A DNA stretch of 36,647 nucleotides from Verrucomicrobiia bacterium (GTDB taxonomy: Bacteria > Verrucomicrobiota > Verrucomicrobiia > Palsa-1439), in the NCBI GenBank assembly GCA_025056465.1, contig JANWVU010000009.1, positions 1 through 36,647 on the forward strand. The letters are read 5' to 3'. This document shows, one piece after another, positions 14,628-35,157 of the stretch (its first letter is position 1; each line of letters begins with the position of its first letter). The notes beneath the pieces are model-generated. The model did not search any database, was not told the origin of the DNA, and worked only from the letters and a program-made list of their open reading frames with translations. Made by a program: the position numbers and the translations under genes.

Positions 14628-15590
14628 ATGTCCCCGCAGAACGAGCTCCCATTGCAGGCCAGTCGAAGGCAGCTCATGGCCCAAATCACCGAGCGAATCC
14701 TCGACTTGCTTAACCAGAACATCGTGCCGTGGAAAATACCGTGGTCAGGTGCCCTCCCATACAATTACATCTCCCGCCGCCCCTATGGGGTCTTAAACGC
14801 AACCCTCCTCCTCGCTACGCCCTTCACCCAGCGTGCTTGGCTCACGCAGCGACAAGTCGAGCGACGCGGTGCCAGCATCCTCCCCCAACAAAAGCCAACG
14901 ACCATCTACTCATTTTTTCCGAACACCTGCAGGAGGACCAACCCGCAGGGCGAACCTAGTTACCCAGTCGAATTGCGTGTCCGCAAATACCAAGTTTGGA
15001 ACATTCAGCAAACGACCTTGCCTCCACCCAAAAACAAAATCACTCCTAGACCGATCCACACAGCCGAAGCCATCGTGCAAAACATGCCCAAACGTCCAGC
15101 GATTCACCAGCACCCCTTGGCCGCCTACTACCGCCCGCTGACCGACGAAGTTTATGTCCCGCCCCCAGACGCATTTCCAATCGCCGAGGAATACTACAGC
15201 ACACTTTTCCACGAGCTGGTCCACGCCACCGGCCATCCCTCCCGGCTCAAACGCAAATCGCTTACGGTGCTCGCAAGTTTCGGTTCACACGCCTACAGCC
15301 AAGAAGAGCTCGTTGCCGAACTAGGGAGCGCCTACCTCTGCGCCATCGCAGGGATTGAGCGTGCAACCCTCCAAAATTCCGTCGCCTACATCCAGAGTTG
15401 GTATCGCGTTCTGAAAAACGATCCGTATATCTTCCCCATCGCGGCAGCCCACGCCCAACGAGCATCTCAATTCATCCTCGGCCGTCTCCCGCATGATCCA
15501 CCGGCTGATCCCGACGCTGCCACCACATCAACACCTCCTCACCGACTCGTCCCGGCCACGAACGCGGACGCTCTTCCCGCAACAGCCTGA
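14628..15590 (+). CDS. ArdC-like antirestriction protein (N-terminal ssDNA-binding domain + zincin-like metallopeptidase)
   Basis: MAQITERILDLLNQNIVPWKIPW...PYGVLNATLLL...WLTQRQVE; HELVHATGHPSRL zincin motif and EELVAELGSAYL; alternative ATG start 14676. Confidence 0.85.
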   Translation: MSPQNELPLQASRRQLMAQITERILDLLNQNIVPWKIPWSGALPYNYISRRPYGVLNATLLLATPFTQRAWLTQRQVERRGASILPQQKPTTIYSFFPNTCRRTNPQGEPSYPVELRVRKYQVWNIQQTTLPPPKNKITPRPIHTAEAIVQNMPKRPAIHQHPLAAYYRPLTDEVYVPPPDAFPIAEEYYSTLFHELVHATGHPSRLKRKSLTVLASFGSHAYSQEELVAELGSAYLCAIAGIERATLQNSVAYIQSWYRVLKNDPYIFPIAAAHAQRASQFILGRLPHDPPADPDAATTSTPPHRLVPATNADALPATA

Positions 15591-28730: not shown

Positions 28731-29473
28731 TGAGCAATCCATTACCCGACATCGATGTGTTTTACGAGGACGCCGACCTGCTGGTGGTCAACAAGCCCCC
28801 CGGCTTGCTGGCCGTGCCGGATCGTTATGACAAAACGCTGCCAAACCTGTGGGATTTGCTGAGGCAACGCTATCAGTTGCCAGAGTTGACCAACCCCCAC
28901 CGGCTCGACCGCTACACTAGCGGTGTCATGATTTTCACCAAACACTCGCAAGCCTACCGGCGATTGACGGCGCAATTTCGCGATCGCCTCATTCGCAAAG
29001 AGTACCTCGCGATTTGTCACGGGACACCAGTCGGCCAATCCATCACCTTGCCGGTAGGCGAACGCGCGGACCGCCCCGGTTTGGCGCGGATTGATCTGCA
29101 CAACGGCAAAACTGCCGAGACCCACATCGCAGTGAAAGAGGCGTTTCGCCAGCACAGTTTGTTGACGATCATCATCACGACCGGTCGGCTTCATCAAATC
29201 CGCGTGCATTTGCAGGCGATCGGTCACCCGCTGGTTGGTGACGCCGATTACGGCGGCGCACCGCTGTACTTGTCGGCGCTCAAACCAAATTATAAACCCA
29301 AGCCAAACGAACCCGAGCGCCCATTGATGACCCGACCGGCTTTGCACGCCAGCGCGATCACCCTGTCCGATCCCCCGCGAACCTTCTGCGCTCCCCTACC
29401 GGATGATTTTGAGGTCGCGTTACGATATCTGCGGCGGTTCGCCGCCCGACGCGACCCGGTCACTCAAACTTGA
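28730..29473 (+). CDS. RluA-family pseudouridine synthase (TTG start)
   Basis: LLVVNKPPGLLAVPD, NPHRLDRYTSGVMIFTK (HRLD motif), GRLHQIRVHLQAIGHPLVGD. Confidence 0.93.
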   Translation: MSNPLPDIDVFYEDADLLVVNKPPGLLAVPDRYDKTLPNLWDLLRQRYQLPELTNPHRLDRYTSGVMIFTKHSQAYRRLTAQFRDRLIRKEYLAICHGTPVGQSITLPVGERADRPGLARIDLHNGKTAETHIAVKEAFRQHSLLTIIITTGRLHQIRVHLQAIGHPLVGDADYGGAPLYLSALKPNYKPKPNEPERPLMTRPALHASAITLSDPPRTFCAPLPDDFEVALRYLRRFAARRDPVTQT

Positions 29474-30413
29474 CTACCCAACCCTTTTTCACCGCCGCAT
29501 CCCCGGCGTAGTGCGCCTTGCTGCGATCGGCCTGCACCGACTCCAGTGTGATTTCACCGACGAGTTTCTCCTCGGTAAACACCACGTTGCCCTCATCGTC
29601 CTTCAACTCGACCAACTCGTACAACTTTAGTTTGTCGCCGCTTTTGACACCGTGGTCGCTACCGAGTGACACAATCAGTGTGTTCTTTCCGGCCACCGCA
29701 AGCACCTGGCCAGTGACTTTGCGTTGCTCGGCGGCCTTGGCCGCTTGGGCGCGACGCCGACCAGACTCGGGCAATTGAATCGCCGCAATCTCCTGAACGA
29801 TGCTCTCAAGCGCCTTGACGGTCGCCTTCCCCAGCGCACTGTTCATGAATTCCTGATTGTGAAACCCAATTTTTCCTCCATGACCTTTGACGCCTACGCC
29901 AACGTCGAATGCCAAACCGGTATGCTGACCGACGGCCTGGCCCGTCTTGATAATTTTGCGTGTCGCCGTGTCCACGAACCGCCAATCAATCCGCACATCA
30001 GCGCGCGTTTGTCCCAGCCCCAACTTGCCTCCGCTCCCGGGCACAAATCCACCGAGGTCAATTCCTTGCTTACCGGCTCCGAATCGAGTCACTTTGCCCC
30101 GAAACATGAAATCGGCCCCGGCAAACTGTCCTTTCTCCACGCGTTCGTCCTTTGCGACGTACCCTTGCTGACCCAACTCGATTTCCTCGATCAACTCCGG
30201 CAACGCCGTGGATTCCAGCACCTCGAACTTCCCGAGCTTCGTCAGCTCCGTAATTAACATCTCGGCCAATCCTTCGCCCATGGCCGGCTGCCAACCTTGA
30301 ATGGCGGCGAGGTCACCGTCGAGTGGCGCGACGAACACCGTAGGTTTGTCCTGTGCCAACCCGGCCCCAGCGAGCGCGAAACACAAAAACGTTGCGACAA
30401 ATCGTTGCTTCAT
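29460..30413 (-). CDS. CsgG/FlgO-type outer-membrane-associated protein
   Basis: Signal peptide; GEGLAEMLITELTKLGKFEVLESTALPELIEEIELGQQGYV...GADFMFRGKVTRF; RIDWRFVDTATRKIIKTGQAVG. Confidence 0.82.
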   Translation of the reverse strand: MKQRFVATFLCFALAGAGLAQDKPTVFVAPLDGDLAAIQGWQPAMGEGLAEMLITELTKLGKFEVLESTALPELIEEIELGQQGYVAKDERVEKGQFAGADFMFRGKVTRFGAGKQGIDLGGFVPGSGGKLGLGQTRADVRIDWRFVDTATRKIIKTGQAVGQHTGLAFDVGVGVKGHGGKIGFHNQEFMNSALGKATVKALESIVQEIAAIQLPESGRRRAQAAKAAEQRKVTGQVLAVAGKNTLIVSLGSDHGVKSGDKLKLYELVELKDDEGNVVFTEEKLVGEITLESVQADRSKAHYAGDAAVKKGWVVKFE

Positions 30414-30573
30414 CCCCGACATGATATCAGCCTTCAACCCCCAATATTCAATCGCAAAAGCATCTCGCGCCACGTTACCGGATCATCACCCGGTGGTTGC
30501 GCGAATGTAACGCGACCGGTTGAGGTGCCTGCGTTGACGCTGTGGGGTCGGTTTGATAGTTTTCTCGTGTTCC

Positions 30574-31191
30574 ATGCGAAACTGGCTCAACGAAAACGTG
30601 TTGGTGCTCAACCGGCTCTGGCAGGCAGTGAACGTCTGCACGGTCGAGCGCGCGTTTTCGCTGTTGTTCGCCGGCCACGCCGAAGTCGTCGCCGAGACCG
30701 ACGGCGGTTTTCAAACCTACGACTTCAAAGAGTGGTGCGAGTTTAGTCGCGGCCATCACGGCGAGGATGTGGTGCACACGGTCTCGCTGAAAATCCGTGT
30801 GCCGCGCGTGATCCTGTTGTTGTTCTTCGACCGCCTCCCGCACAAGGAGGTCAAGTTCACGCGGCACAACATCTTCGAGCGCGACCACAACACCTGCCAG
30901 TACTGCGGGAAACGATTCGACCGCAAAGACCTCAATCTCGATCACGTCATCCCGCGCGACCGCGGCGGCACCACCACTTGGGAAAACATCGTGTGCGCGT
31001 GCATCCCCTGCAACACACGCAAAGCCAACCGCACGCCCGCTGAAGCCGGCATGCGATTGATCCGCAAACCGAAACGCCCCAAGTGGCGACCGTTCGTCAA
31101 CATCACCGTCGCCACCAGCGGTCACGAAAGCTGGAAACACTTCCTCGACCTCGCGTACTGGAACGTCGAGCTGGGCGAAGAGTTGGAGTAG
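30574..31191 (+). CDS. HNH endonuclease family protein
   Basis: LVLNRLWQAVNVCTVERAF; CQYCGKRFDRKDLNLDHVIPRDRGGTTTWENIVCACIPCNTRKANRTP. Confidence 0.93.
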   Translation: MRNWLNENVLVLNRLWQAVNVCTVERAFSLLFAGHAEVVAETDGGFQTYDFKEWCEFSRGHHGEDVVHTVSLKIRVPRVILLLFFDRLPHKEVKFTRHNIFERDHNTCQYCGKRFDRKDLNLDHVIPRDRGGTTTWENIVCACIPCNTRKANRTPAEAGMRLIRKPKRPKWRPFVNITVATSGHESWKHFLDLAYWNVELGEELE

Positions 31192-31210: not shown

Positions 31211-32386
31211 TCAGCGCTCACGACGCAACGATTCCAACGCCCGTTGAATCACCGGGTCATCGCGCGGTTCCGTCCCGAAGCCGGCTAAGGCCAGTCGCCG
31301 CTCCTGCTCACGCGTCAGCTCCACCGCAACGTCCGGTAGCAGCCCCTCACGGTCGAACGATTGTCCGTCCGGCGTCTCCATCCGTCCGACCGGCAAAATC
31401 AGGCGCATCCCATCCGGCAACGCAAACGACTGCCATACCCGACCGCGCCCCGCCGTTCGCGCACCGAACAATTGGGCTCGTCGGTGAGATTGCAACGCAC
31501 CCGCCAGCAATTCCGCCTCCGCGGCCGTACCGGCATTGATCAGCAACGCCACCGGTGCTTGGAACACCACCGGTTCGTACGCCGTCATTAGCGCCGTCCG
31601 ACGTTGTCCCCGACCGTACACCACCGACCCCACCGGTGAGCGACCCGGTAGGAACAACTCGATGGCCGCTGCCACCGCCAGCAAATGCCCACCGGGATTG
31701 TTCCGCACATCCAGAATCAACCCGCGCGCCTGTTCCTGATGCGCTTTCGCGATTCCCTCACGCAACCGTTCCACCACCTCCAGCTCCAGCGACGGCAGCC
31801 GGTAATACGCCACCCCGCCGGCTAAAAACCGCAGGCCACCGGGTGCCGGTCGCGGTGCTTCGCGGCGAATCCGCAACGCTCGCGCCGAACCGCCCGCGTC
31901 ACGAAGCTCCAAAATCAATTCCGCGCCAGCCACACCGTCGAGTTGCTGTCGCAACGCTGCAAGAGACCGCCCCGCCGTAGGCTGATAATTCACGCCGGTG
32001 ATCCACTCGCCGGGCATCAACCCTGCCCGTTGCGCCGTGGTGCCGTCTCGCACACTTACGATCAACGGCATGTCGTCGCGTCGCGTCAGCAACGCACCCA
32101 AAACCACTCCATCGGGCTGGGGCGTCTGCACAGCGGGCAACAGCTCGGCTTCCTCATCCACCGTTTGCACAAACTGCTCGAGCGCAGCGGTGGTGGCCTC
32201 AGCCAACTGTACCGGCTCCGCCGGCACATGATGCTCGAGAATCAGCTCGAGGAGGGCAGTCAGCCGCGAGACCGCTTCGTAGGTACCGGCCCCGGGCGTG
32301 AGCACGCGCGGCGATGTTGTTTGCGCGGCCAGCGGTGCACCGCCAACCACGAGACCAAGCAGACACCACCGCCCCGCCCGCACCAT
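31211..32386 (-). CDS. S41 (C-terminal processing peptidase)-family PDZ protein with substituted active site
   Basis: Signal peptide, PDZ (PLIVSVRDGTTAQRAGLMPGEWITGV), S41 core (GLILDVRNNPGGHLLAV; INAGTAAEAELLAGAL; GARTAGRGRVW); start ATG 32386. Confidence 0.88.
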   Translation of the reverse strand: MVRAGRWCLLGLVVGGAPLAAQTTSPRVLTPGAGTYEAVSRLTALLELILEHHVPAEPVQLAEATTAALEQFVQTVDEEAELLPAVQTPQPDGVVLGALLTRRDDMPLIVSVRDGTTAQRAGLMPGEWITGVNYQPTAGRSLAALRQQLDGVAGAELILELRDAGGSARALRIRREAPRPAPGGLRFLAGGVAYYRLPSLELEVVERLREGIAKAHQEQARGLILDVRNNPGGHLLAVAAAIELFLPGRSPVGSVVYGRGQRRTALMTAYEPVVFQAPVALLINAGTAAEAELLAGALQSHRRAQLFGARTAGRGRVWQSFALPDGMRLILPVGRMETPDGQSFDREGLLPDVAVELTREQERRLALAGFGTEPRDDPVIQRALESLRRER

Positions 32387-32423: not shown

Positions 32424-34034
32424 TCAGGTGTACTCTTGGCCGGTGATCGCGTCGGTGATCTTGAACTGTTCAAGATGGAATGAGGGATCAGCGCGGAAAC
32501 TGAGTTTGCCGTGCAGTCGCTTCTCCAAATCAACCAACAAATCCTCATCTTCGCTGCGCAGCCGGTTGAGCACTTGCGGATGCACATACACACGCAAATG
32601 CGGCGGCTCGCCTTGCGGATCATGTTTCACCGAGCGCAACACCTCGGCGATCTTGCGTTGGATTTCCACCGACATCGTCAGCGGACTTTTCACCAGGCCG
32701 CGACCGTTGCAGTACGGACAATCCTCATATACCGCACTGGCCATGCTTTCGCTGTGACGCTGGCGGGTCATCTCCATCAACCCCAGCGGTGAGATGGGCA
32801 GGATGCGCGTCTTGGCTTTGTCGCGTTTCACGCACTCGCGCATTTTTTGCACGACCTTCTGTTGATCCGCGCGGTTGCGCATATCAATGAAATCAATGAC
32901 GATCAGCCCGCCAATGTTGCGCAAACGCAACTGGCGCGCGATTTCCTCGGCCGCTTCCATGTTCGTCTGGAAGATGGTTGTGTCGAGGTCCTTCTGGGAC
33001 TTGTGCTTGCCGGTGTTGACGTCAATGGCCACCAGCGCTTCCGTTTCATCAATGCAGATGTAACCGCCGCTTTTCAGCCAGACCTGACGACGAAACGCAT
33101 TCTCAATTTGTTTTTCCACATTGAACTTCGTGAAAATCGGCGTGGGTTCCGTGTACAACTTGACCTTGTTGCGGGAGCGACGACTGATTTGGCCGACCAT
33201 CTCCCGAATGCGCTCGTAAGCCTGTTCGTTGTCCACCACGATGCGGTCCACTTCTTCGGTGAGGAAATCGCGCACCGTGCGCTCGATTAGATCGGGCTCT
33301 TGGAAAACGCAGGAAGGAGTCGGTTGCGTTTTGATTTTCTCTTCCACCTCACGCCACGTCTTGAGCAGCAACTCGAGGTCGCGAATGAAATAGCGTTTGC
33401 GCTGTCCCTCACCTGCCGTGCGGATGATTAAACCCATCTCTCCCGGCACCTTGAGGCGTTGCAGGATTTTCTTCAGTCGCTGACGCTCTTTTTCGTCCTC
33501 GATTTTGCGGGAGATGCCCCGCAGCGGATTGAACGGCATCAACACTAGGAACCGACCCGGTATGCTGATGTTGGTGGTGACACGCGGCCCTTTCGTGCCG
33601 ATGGGACCTTTGACCACCTGCACAATCACATCGGAACCGGGCGGGTACAGTTTCGGGATATCGTTCTGACTGATTTTCTGCGGTTGTTTGGGCGCGCTGC
33701 CGTCCTCAGACTCGACCAACTCCACCCGTTCCGCAAGCGATTCGGGGATGATGTCCCAGTAGTGCAGGAACGCGTTCTTCTCAAACCCAATATCCACAAA
33801 CGCAGCTTTCAGTCCGGGCTCGAGGTTTTTGATCTTGCCCTTGAAAATGCTCGCCACAATGTGCCGCTCGCGCGTCCGCTCGATGCTGAATTCCTCAAGC
33901 TGACCGTCCTCCAACACCGCAACACGATTTTCCAACGCCTCCGCGTTGATGATGATTTCCTTGAACACCGAGGAGCGCTTGCGCCCGCGCAAGAGCTCCT
34001 CGCCTTTGCGAATCAATTGTTTGATGGCTTCCAC
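32424..34034 (-). CDS. Rne/Rng family ribonuclease (RNase E/G)
   Basis: 536 aa; RVAVLEDGQLEEFSIER, GKIKNLEPGLKAAFVDIGFEKNAFLH, DETEALVAIDVNTGKHKSQKDLDTTIFQTNMEAAEEIARQLRLRNIGGLIVIDFIDM, CPYCNGRGLV. Confidence 0.97.
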   Translation of the reverse strand: MEAIKQLIRKGEELLRGRKRSSVFKEIIINAEALENRVAVLEDGQLEEFSIERTRERHIVASIFKGKIKNLEPGLKAAFVDIGFEKNAFLHYWDIIPESLAERVELVESEDGSAPKQPQKISQNDIPKLYPPGSDVIVQVVKGPIGTKGPRVTTNISIPGRFLVLMPFNPLRGISRKIEDEKERQRLKKILQRLKVPGEMGLIIRTAGEGQRKRYFIRDLELLLKTWREVEEKIKTQPTPSCVFQEPDLIERTVRDFLTEEVDRIVVDNEQAYERIREMVGQISRRSRNKVKLYTEPTPIFTKFNVEKQIENAFRRQVWLKSGGYICIDETEALVAIDVNTGKHKSQKDLDTTIFQTNMEAAEEIARQLRLRNIGGLIVIDFIDMRNRADQQKVVQKMRECVKRDKAKTRILPISPLGLMEMTRQRHSESMASAVYEDCPYCNGRGLVKSPLTMSVEIQRKIAEVLRSVKHDPQGEPPHLRVYVHPQVLNRLRSEDEDLLVDLEKRLHGKLSFRADPSFHLEQFKITDAITGQEYT

Positions 34035-34038
34035 CGTT

Positions 34039-35157
34039 CTAAATCCTCCGTCGTACCCACACGCTCTGCAACAGGCCCAACGCCGTCATGCTGGCGATCA
34101 CAAACGACCCGCCATAGCTGAGCAGGGGAAGCGGCAGACCTGTGATGGGCATCAGCCCAATGGTCATGCCGATGTTGATAAACACATGGAAAAACAACAT
34201 TGCCACCACACCCGTGGCCAGCAACGTGCCCAGCCGGTCGCGCGCATGTGCTGCAATCCGCAACCCGCTGAACAAAATCACCGCGTAACAACCAATTACC
34301 GCCACCGCTCCGAGAAAACCCGTCTCCTCGGCAATGACGCTGAACAAAAAATCGTTCGGCGCCACCGTCCGTGGCAGGTAACCCAACAAATTTTGCGTCC
34401 CGTCCAAATAACCTTTCCCCGTCAGGCCGCCCGACCCCACCGCAATCAACGACTGATTCAGGTTCCACGCGCTGCCCAGTGGATCCTTCTCCGGCTTCAA
34501 AAAAACCGTCAGACGCGCCTTCTGGTAATCCTTCAACTGCCACCAGGCCACTGGCGACATCGCCAGCCCCAGTGCGGCCACCCACACCAACTGCTTGATG
34601 CGGGCGCCGCCCACAAACAACATCGCATACGCCACCGGCACCAACACCATCGCGGACCCCAGATCCGGTTGGGCCAGGATCAAACCCATCGGCACCGCCG
34701 CAATCCCCAACGCGGTCCCCGTGGTCCTCCAACGGCGACGCGCCTCGGGCGTTCGATCAAACAAATAATACGCCAACGCCACAATGACACTCAACTTCGC
34801 AAATTCCGCCGGTTGGATCCCGTACCCGCCCCAGCCCAACCACGATTTCGCGCCGTTGACCGTCTTACCCACCGCCAACACCAGCACCAACAACCCCACC
34901 GCCAACACCATCCCCACCGTCGCCCACTGACACAACCACCGGTAATCCACCCACGCCGCCCCCACAAACGCCACCGTCCCCAAAACAAACCACACCATCT
35001 GTTGCCGATAAAAATCCGGCATCGCCTGACCCGGCCCCCGGTACGACGCGCTGTAGATGAACAACACACTCATCACCGCCAACACCACCATCGCCCCGAC
35101 GATCACCCAATCCATCCGCCCCAACAACGCGAGTTGTTTGCGCCACCGCTCGCTCAA
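34039..35157 (-). CDS. rodA: Rod shape-determining protein RodA (FtsW/RodA/SpoVE SEDS family)
   Basis: SWLGWGGYGIQPAEFAKLSVIVALAYYL, AQPDLGSAMVLVPVAYAMLFVGGA, FINIGMTIGLMPITGLPLPLLSYGGSFVIASMTALGLL; overlaps mrdA stop. Confidence 0.96.
   Translation of the reverse strand: MSERWRKQLALLGRMDWVIVGAMVVLAVMSVLFIYSASYRGPGQAMPDFYRQQMVWFVLGTVAFVGAAWVDYRWLCQWATVGMVLAVGLLVLVLAVGKTVNGAKSWLGWGGYGIQPAEFAKLSVIVALAYYLFDRTPEARRRWRTTGTALGIAAVPMGLILAQPDLGSAMVLVPVAYAMLFVGGARIKQLVWVAALGLAMSPVAWWQLKDYQKARLTVFLKPEKDPLGSAWNLNQSLIAVGSGGLTGKGYLDGTQNLLGYLPRTVAPNDFLFSVIAEETGFLGAVAVIGCYAVILFSGLRIAAHARDRLGTLLATGVVAMLFFHVFINIGMTIGLMPITGLPLPLLSYGGSFVIASMTALGLLQSVWVRRRI

Follow-up and report, generated by a model that had tools for sequence, protein, structure and literature searches.

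Within the 36,647-nt stretch of DNA analyzed here (the window; contig C269 of a 2.38-Mb genome that is 81% complete), a minus-strand gene, hereafter S41B, encodes a protein that has the fold of the C-terminal processing proteases (CTPs) and carries other residues at the catalytic positions (Table 1). The open reading frame (ORF) has an ATG start codon and begins 37 bp past the stop codon of the RNase G gene, with rodA and mrdA further upstream, confirming the neighbors RNase E/G, rodA, and mrdA named in the initial annotation. Two genes from S41B lies a gene for a CsgG-like protein (29460-30473, minus strand) with weak matches to LpoB, a peptidoglycan synthase activator, and to FlgT_C. Convergent with S41B is a gene for an HNH endonuclease protein (30553-31191, plus strand) that weakly resembles IscB and Cas9 in their HNH parts; relatives showed no such gene between S41B and larB. 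The window also encodes an ArdC-type anti-restriction protein (ArdcN plus MPTase-PolyVal; 14628-15590, plus strand) in a chromosomal-looking context.

Table 1. Features of S41B and associated genes; positions refer to the window unless a locus is named
Feature	Position	Strand	Basis or remark
S41B gene, CTP-fold protein with catalytic triad replaced	31211..32386	-	391 aa; ORF and translation; Pfam S41, 122.5 bits
Signal-peptide-like N-terminal segment, residues 1-21, MVRAGRWCLLGLVVGGAPLAA	32324..32386	-	By-eye reading; low-confidence, unstructured N-terminus in AF2 model
Two N-terminal helices, residues 33-52 and 61-76	32159..32290	-	AF2 secondary structure
PDZ domain, about residues 95-175	31862..32104	-	PDZ_6 sub-threshold; AF2 strands and helices
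Asp150, at CtpB substrate-sensor Arg168 position	31937..31939	-	Alignment; Arg in 93% of aligned CTPs
Peptidase_S41 domain, residues 192-355	31322..31813	-	Pfam, 122.5 bits (cut-off 24)
Ala289, at catalytic Ser position (Ser302 CtpA/Ser309 CtpB)	31520..31522	-	Alignment to solved CTPs
Glu290, S41B-specific	31517..31519	-	Alignment; Ala in 93% of aligned CTPs and in the G002 copy
Arg314, at catalytic Lys position	31445..31447	-	Alignment to solved CTPs
Trp318, at third catalytic position	31433..31435	-	Alignment; Gln in 100% of aligned CTPs
rng (RNase G), immediately upstream of S41B	32424..34034	-	Order kept in all six carriers
rodA	34039..35157	-	Domain/profile matches
mrdA (PBP2), runs to window/contig end	35154..36638	-	Domain/profile matches
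Secreted-looking TPR protein (TPR_12) after S41B, three congeners	L035:10486-11820; L036:10379-11752; L037:12305-13732		
S41C, PDZ-less S41 paralogue without catalytic Ser or Lys	L040:4710-5816 (own genome, G000:C2); also L041-L048		

S41B scored 132.5 bits against the prc profile TIGR00225, under its curated cut-off of 218.6, and 25.7 bits against PDZ_6, just below the cut-off of 27, with PDZ-like strands and helices evident in its predicted structure. The AlphaFold (AF2) model, built on a 63-row alignment, had a pLDDT of 89.0 and a pTM of 0.86 and was laid out as two N-terminal helices, a PDZ region, an S41 core, and C-terminal helices. By Foldseek, the structures closest to this model were Pseudomonas aeruginosa CtpA (with LbcA), Helicobacter pylori CtpA, CtpB, and the D1 protease, with E values of 1e-28 to 1e-31 against CtpA and CtpB and TM scores of 0.7-0.85 for the best chains. 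In architecture, the two N-terminal helices (pLDDT about 86-92) are the counterpart of the N-terminal dimerization region of CtpA and CtpB (PMC8764530), and a dimerization role is predicted for them. The hydrophobic segment at the very N-terminus is likewise present in the S41B orthologues.

Active-site columns were read from an alignment to solved CTPs, with column frequencies taken from 61 aligned CTPs. The catalytic triad is Ser302-Lys327-Gln331 in P. aeruginosa CtpA (PMC8764530) and Ser309-Lys334-Gln338 in CtpB (PMC3808539), and each of these columns is 100% conserved in the 61 sequences. The replacement of the catalytic Ser by Ala and of the catalytic Lys by Arg, as initially annotated, was borne out by this alignment; beyond it, the equivalents of the third catalytic residue (Gln331 in CtpA, Gln338 in CtpB) and of the CtpB sensor Arg168 were also lost, and the residue at the third position varies among S41B orthologues. 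The landmarks of the S41 fold, said to be retained, are present in the window protein as DVRNNPGG, Asn284, Gly286, Glu292, Gly308, Gly313, Pro339, Gly348, and Pro351-Asp352. A replacement Ser/Lys dyad elsewhere in the S41 domain was rejected because the alignment of S41B copies contains no invariant Lys and, inside the S41 domain, no invariant Ser, leaving no alternative pair; the window protein has a single Lys, Lys214, outside the active-site motifs. All five full-length copies have Thr287, Glu290, Glu292, and Arg314. A Glu290-Arg314 salt bridge standing in for the dyad is suggestive, since the remaining copy, that of genome G002, alters both residues, to Ala and Val.

The PDZ domain, which had also been described as retained, is kept as a fold but not clearly as a functional module, with the peptide-contacting Arg of the CtpB type lost. 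In CtpB, Arg168 contacts the peptide and couples the PDZ domain to the protease, and peptides bind 3-5 fold more weakly when it is mutated (PMC3808539). The window protein has Asp at this position and its orthologues have Thr or Gly (D/T/G/G/G), which argues that S41B is unlikely to be a PDZ-gated switch in the manner of CtpB.

A search over 57 genomes recovered close S41B relatives in G005, G003, G008, G010, and G002 (36-44% identity). All carriers belong to one family, with the orthologues in genera g6, g4, and g3 and the window in g1; outside this family no S41B was found at S41B-like scores in a class sample of 384 genomes or at an E value of ≤1e-80 in a phylum sample of 388 genomes. The motifs GTAAEAE and GRG are common to five of the six copies, i.e., the window protein and four orthologues with intact frames. 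In the sixth copy, from G002, the motifs read GTAAAAE and GVG, and the assembled sequence shifts frame inside a run of ten C. Such runs are a frequent site of assembly errors, and this frameshift may be one. The catalytic residues are lost in all six species (G002 being read from the frameshifted assembly); no orthologue has an intact dyad, and the loss, common to all five, is not a recent decay.

S41B lies directly after rng in all six carriers, and mrdA-rodA precede rng in the five that are readable, the G002 contig starting inside rng. On the 3' side we found a gene that we take to be larB, from its AIR-carboxylase domain and knowledge of the family; it follows S41B in G005, comes after a gene for a secreted TPR protein in G003 and G008, and comes after a gene for a 207-aa protein in G002, while in G010 a TPR gene lies 3' of S41B after intervening sequence. 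A close match to this TPR gene was found only in genus g4, and the TPR protein was on that ground rejected as a general S41B partner. No S41B separates rng from the larB or larB-like sequence that comes next in G001, G007, G006, and G004.

In a phylogenetic tree, the six S41B copies formed one clade (100/100) on a long stem, and they again formed one clade with a long separate stem when the other dyad-less groups were left out; a recent duplication of the family's own CtpA was considered as the source, and grouping of S41B with that CtpA was not rejected (p-AU 0.26). The S41B carriers grouped together, weakly, in the CtpA tree (83/86), which fits a single gain of S41B between rng and larB; the carriers were not recovered as a single group in the RNase G tree. 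Every carrier (6/6) also has an intact CtpA elsewhere in its genome, with GSAS.SE, GKG, and the Gln. As a separate observation, the 95%-complete family member G006 gave no CtpA match at an E value of ≤1e-45 and has just one gene of the S41C type and another of Prc length.

We estimated dN/dS by Nei-Gojobori counts in pairs within genus g4, as dS was saturated across genera. S41B gave values of 0.169 (G003-G010, dS 0.56), 0.233, and 0.206 and is maintained by purifying selection; it evolves about 2.5 times faster than CtpA, with values in the same pairs of 0.068-0.090 for CtpA, 0.016-0.037 for RNase G, and 0.094-0.099 for PBP2. The helical region and the C-terminus are among its most constrained parts within g4 (0.09-0.16), and the TPR gene evolves at about the same rate as S41B (0.16-0.21). 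Recent decay or sequencing error was rejected by these ratios together with the presence of orthologues in separate assemblies, and the initial suggestion of a pseudoprotease rather than gene decay is upheld by the five orthologues that lack the dyad, four of them in intact frames, by dN/dS, by the pLDDT of the model, and by the lack of another Ser/Lys pair. Altogether, it is highly probable from sequence comparison that the Ser-Lys-Gln triad is gone in every S41B copy while the fold, the fixed rng neighbor (after mrdA-rodA) in six species, and an intact CtpA in each have been kept. The assignment of S41B as a putatively secreted, catalytically dead CTP held by selection is well supported.

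Other S41 groups without the dyad were found in these bacteria. In nearly all of the 29 S41C copies read, Gly takes the place of the Ser, and the Lys of the GKG position is absent in all but possibly one of them. S41C is kept in 10 of 11 family genomes with relatives across the class and showed dN/dS of 0.12-0.16 within genus g4. Its profile found matches in 123 of 286 genomes of the class, although the weaker matches overlap ordinary CtpA. In the family, its neighbor is a fusion of a low-molecular-weight tyrosine phosphatase, RpiB, and serine hydroxymethyltransferase (L041:2751-4967 and L044:2834-5029), and ORFs with the same start as this fusion adjoin S41C in L040, L042, and L048. Loci L015 (G044:C242) and L026 (G013:C11) carry an S41 pair with GTAGAAE or NTGGAAE and GHN where GSASASE and GKG would stand, which may represent a further lineage lacking the dyad. 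At L012 (G026:C43), a CtpA-like gene keeps the catalytic Ser (GSASESE) with Lys replaced by Asn (GNG) and adjoins a poly(A) polymerase-type gene.

What, then, might such a protein do? S41B probably binds or regulates something rather than cutting. Because the dimerization helices and the fold are kept, CtpA is co-resident, the neighbors act in wall elongation, and a TPR neighbor occurs in one genus, we infer that S41B acts in the periplasm as a regulator or scaffold that does not cleave, perhaps as a partner of CtpA or by holding CtpA substrates. S41B would work there without cutting and would most likely form dimers, either with another S41B or with CtpA, through its N-terminal helices; CtpA-type substrates would be captured in its PDZ domain and dead tunnel, and the turnover of envelope proteins, e.g., peptidoglycan hydrolases, would be restrained or redirected in step with wall synthesis by RodA-PBP2. 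In one genus, the secreted TPR protein may act as a partner. Peptidoglycan hydrolases are known substrates of CTPs that work with TPR adaptors (PMC8764530). Taken as a whole, the proposal of a selected, family-confined CTP pseudoprotease that restrains or redirects envelope proteolysis without cutting is plausible rather than likely. It is favored by the triad loss, the dead orthologues at the same locus, purifying selection, the structural match to CtpA and CtpB, the co-resident CtpA, and the rodA/mrdA and TPR neighbors; it is weakened because rng separates S41B from rodA/mrdA, because S41B evolves faster than CtpA and has lost the PDZ sensor Arg, and because a TPR gene close to S41B occurs in just one genus, where other sequence comes between the two in one of three species. 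The narrower version, a dedicated pseudoprotease subunit that pairs with active CtpA (and a TPR partner in some species) and tunes, in step with RodA-PBP2, how peptidoglycan hydrolases are destroyed, appears unlikely; if true, it would give the CTP family a bacterial counterpart of the iRhoms.

Among the alternatives, an envelope scaffold independent of CtpA, whose PDZ domain and dead protease body hold RodA-PBP2 elongation components or other periplasmic proteins, is the strongest, although we consider it rather less likely than the regulator proposed above. The fixed place after mrdA-rodA-rng in the five readable copies and the retention of structural but not catalytic motifs would suit it, but gene neighborhood is its sole link, with rng between, and rodA-rng is still present in sister species that lack S41B, a protein that the elongation machinery can therefore do without. 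It is improbable that the emptied cleft instead binds a small or lipidic molecule, as in vertebrate RBP3, which has an S41-type fold without catalytic residues and binds retinoids (PMC11750400). RBP3 is among the S41B sequence matches, but a distant one (E value about 1e-4 to 1e-5), and S41B retains a PDZ-like region and CTP-type helices and presents no conserved new pocket that we could identify. Gene decay, with S41B a CtpA duplicate heading for loss, could account for its fast evolution and for the frameshifted G002 assembly; it is very improbable given intact frames in five of six copies from three genera, dN/dS well below 1, an active-site motif identical in those five copies, and the position of the G002 shift in an error-prone run. 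Slightly less credible still is a hydrolase using other chemistry via Thr287 or another residue, for despite the four invariant residues noted above, no Lys is invariant in S41B (Lys214 being alone in the window protein) and its S41 domain has no invariant Ser, active CTPs commonly carry Ser or Thr at position 287, and G002 has Ala and Val in place of Glu290 and Arg314.

Among known systems, the best structural match is P. aeruginosa CtpA, C-terminal processing peptidase-3 (8sxh and 8sxg), with which S41B shares a helical region of the dimerization type, a PDZ-like region, a cap and core, and C-terminal helices; the two are about 25% identical, and Ser302-Lys327-Gln331 corresponds to Ala289-Arg314-Trp318 in S41B, which has also lost the PDZ sensor Arg. 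By its position, the gene for a secreted TPR protein near S41B in one genus recalls CtpA-LbcA and Prc-NlpI, although LbcA, the TPR adaptor of CtpA, is a lipoprotein that carries 11 TPRs. S41B resembles Bacillus subtilis CtpB in its PDZ-gated type of S41 fold (4c2h and 4c2e) and naturally has the S309A-type change that crystallographers made in CtpB; unlike CtpB, it has also lost the equivalents of Lys334, Gln338, and Arg168. We found no description of a bacterial CTP pseudoprotease in the open-access literature searched, and the catalytically lost S41 protein that can be traced in the literature is vertebrate RBP3 (IRBP), in which an S41-type fold lost its catalytic residues and took on a binding function (PMC11750400). 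RBP3 is a retinoid carrier of tandem modules, whereas S41B is a single-module bacterial CTP. With its triad and PDZ switch lost, yet under selection, near cell-shape genes and with CtpA alongside, S41B offers a clean test case for the regulation of envelope proteolysis by a dead paralogue. S41C is likewise an S41 domain without the catalytic Ser and, with one possible exception, without the Lys; it differs from S41B in having no PDZ domain, a broken NNPGG loop, and a wide distribution in the class, and this wider dyad-less group suggests that Verrucomicrobiota repurposed the S41 fold more than once.
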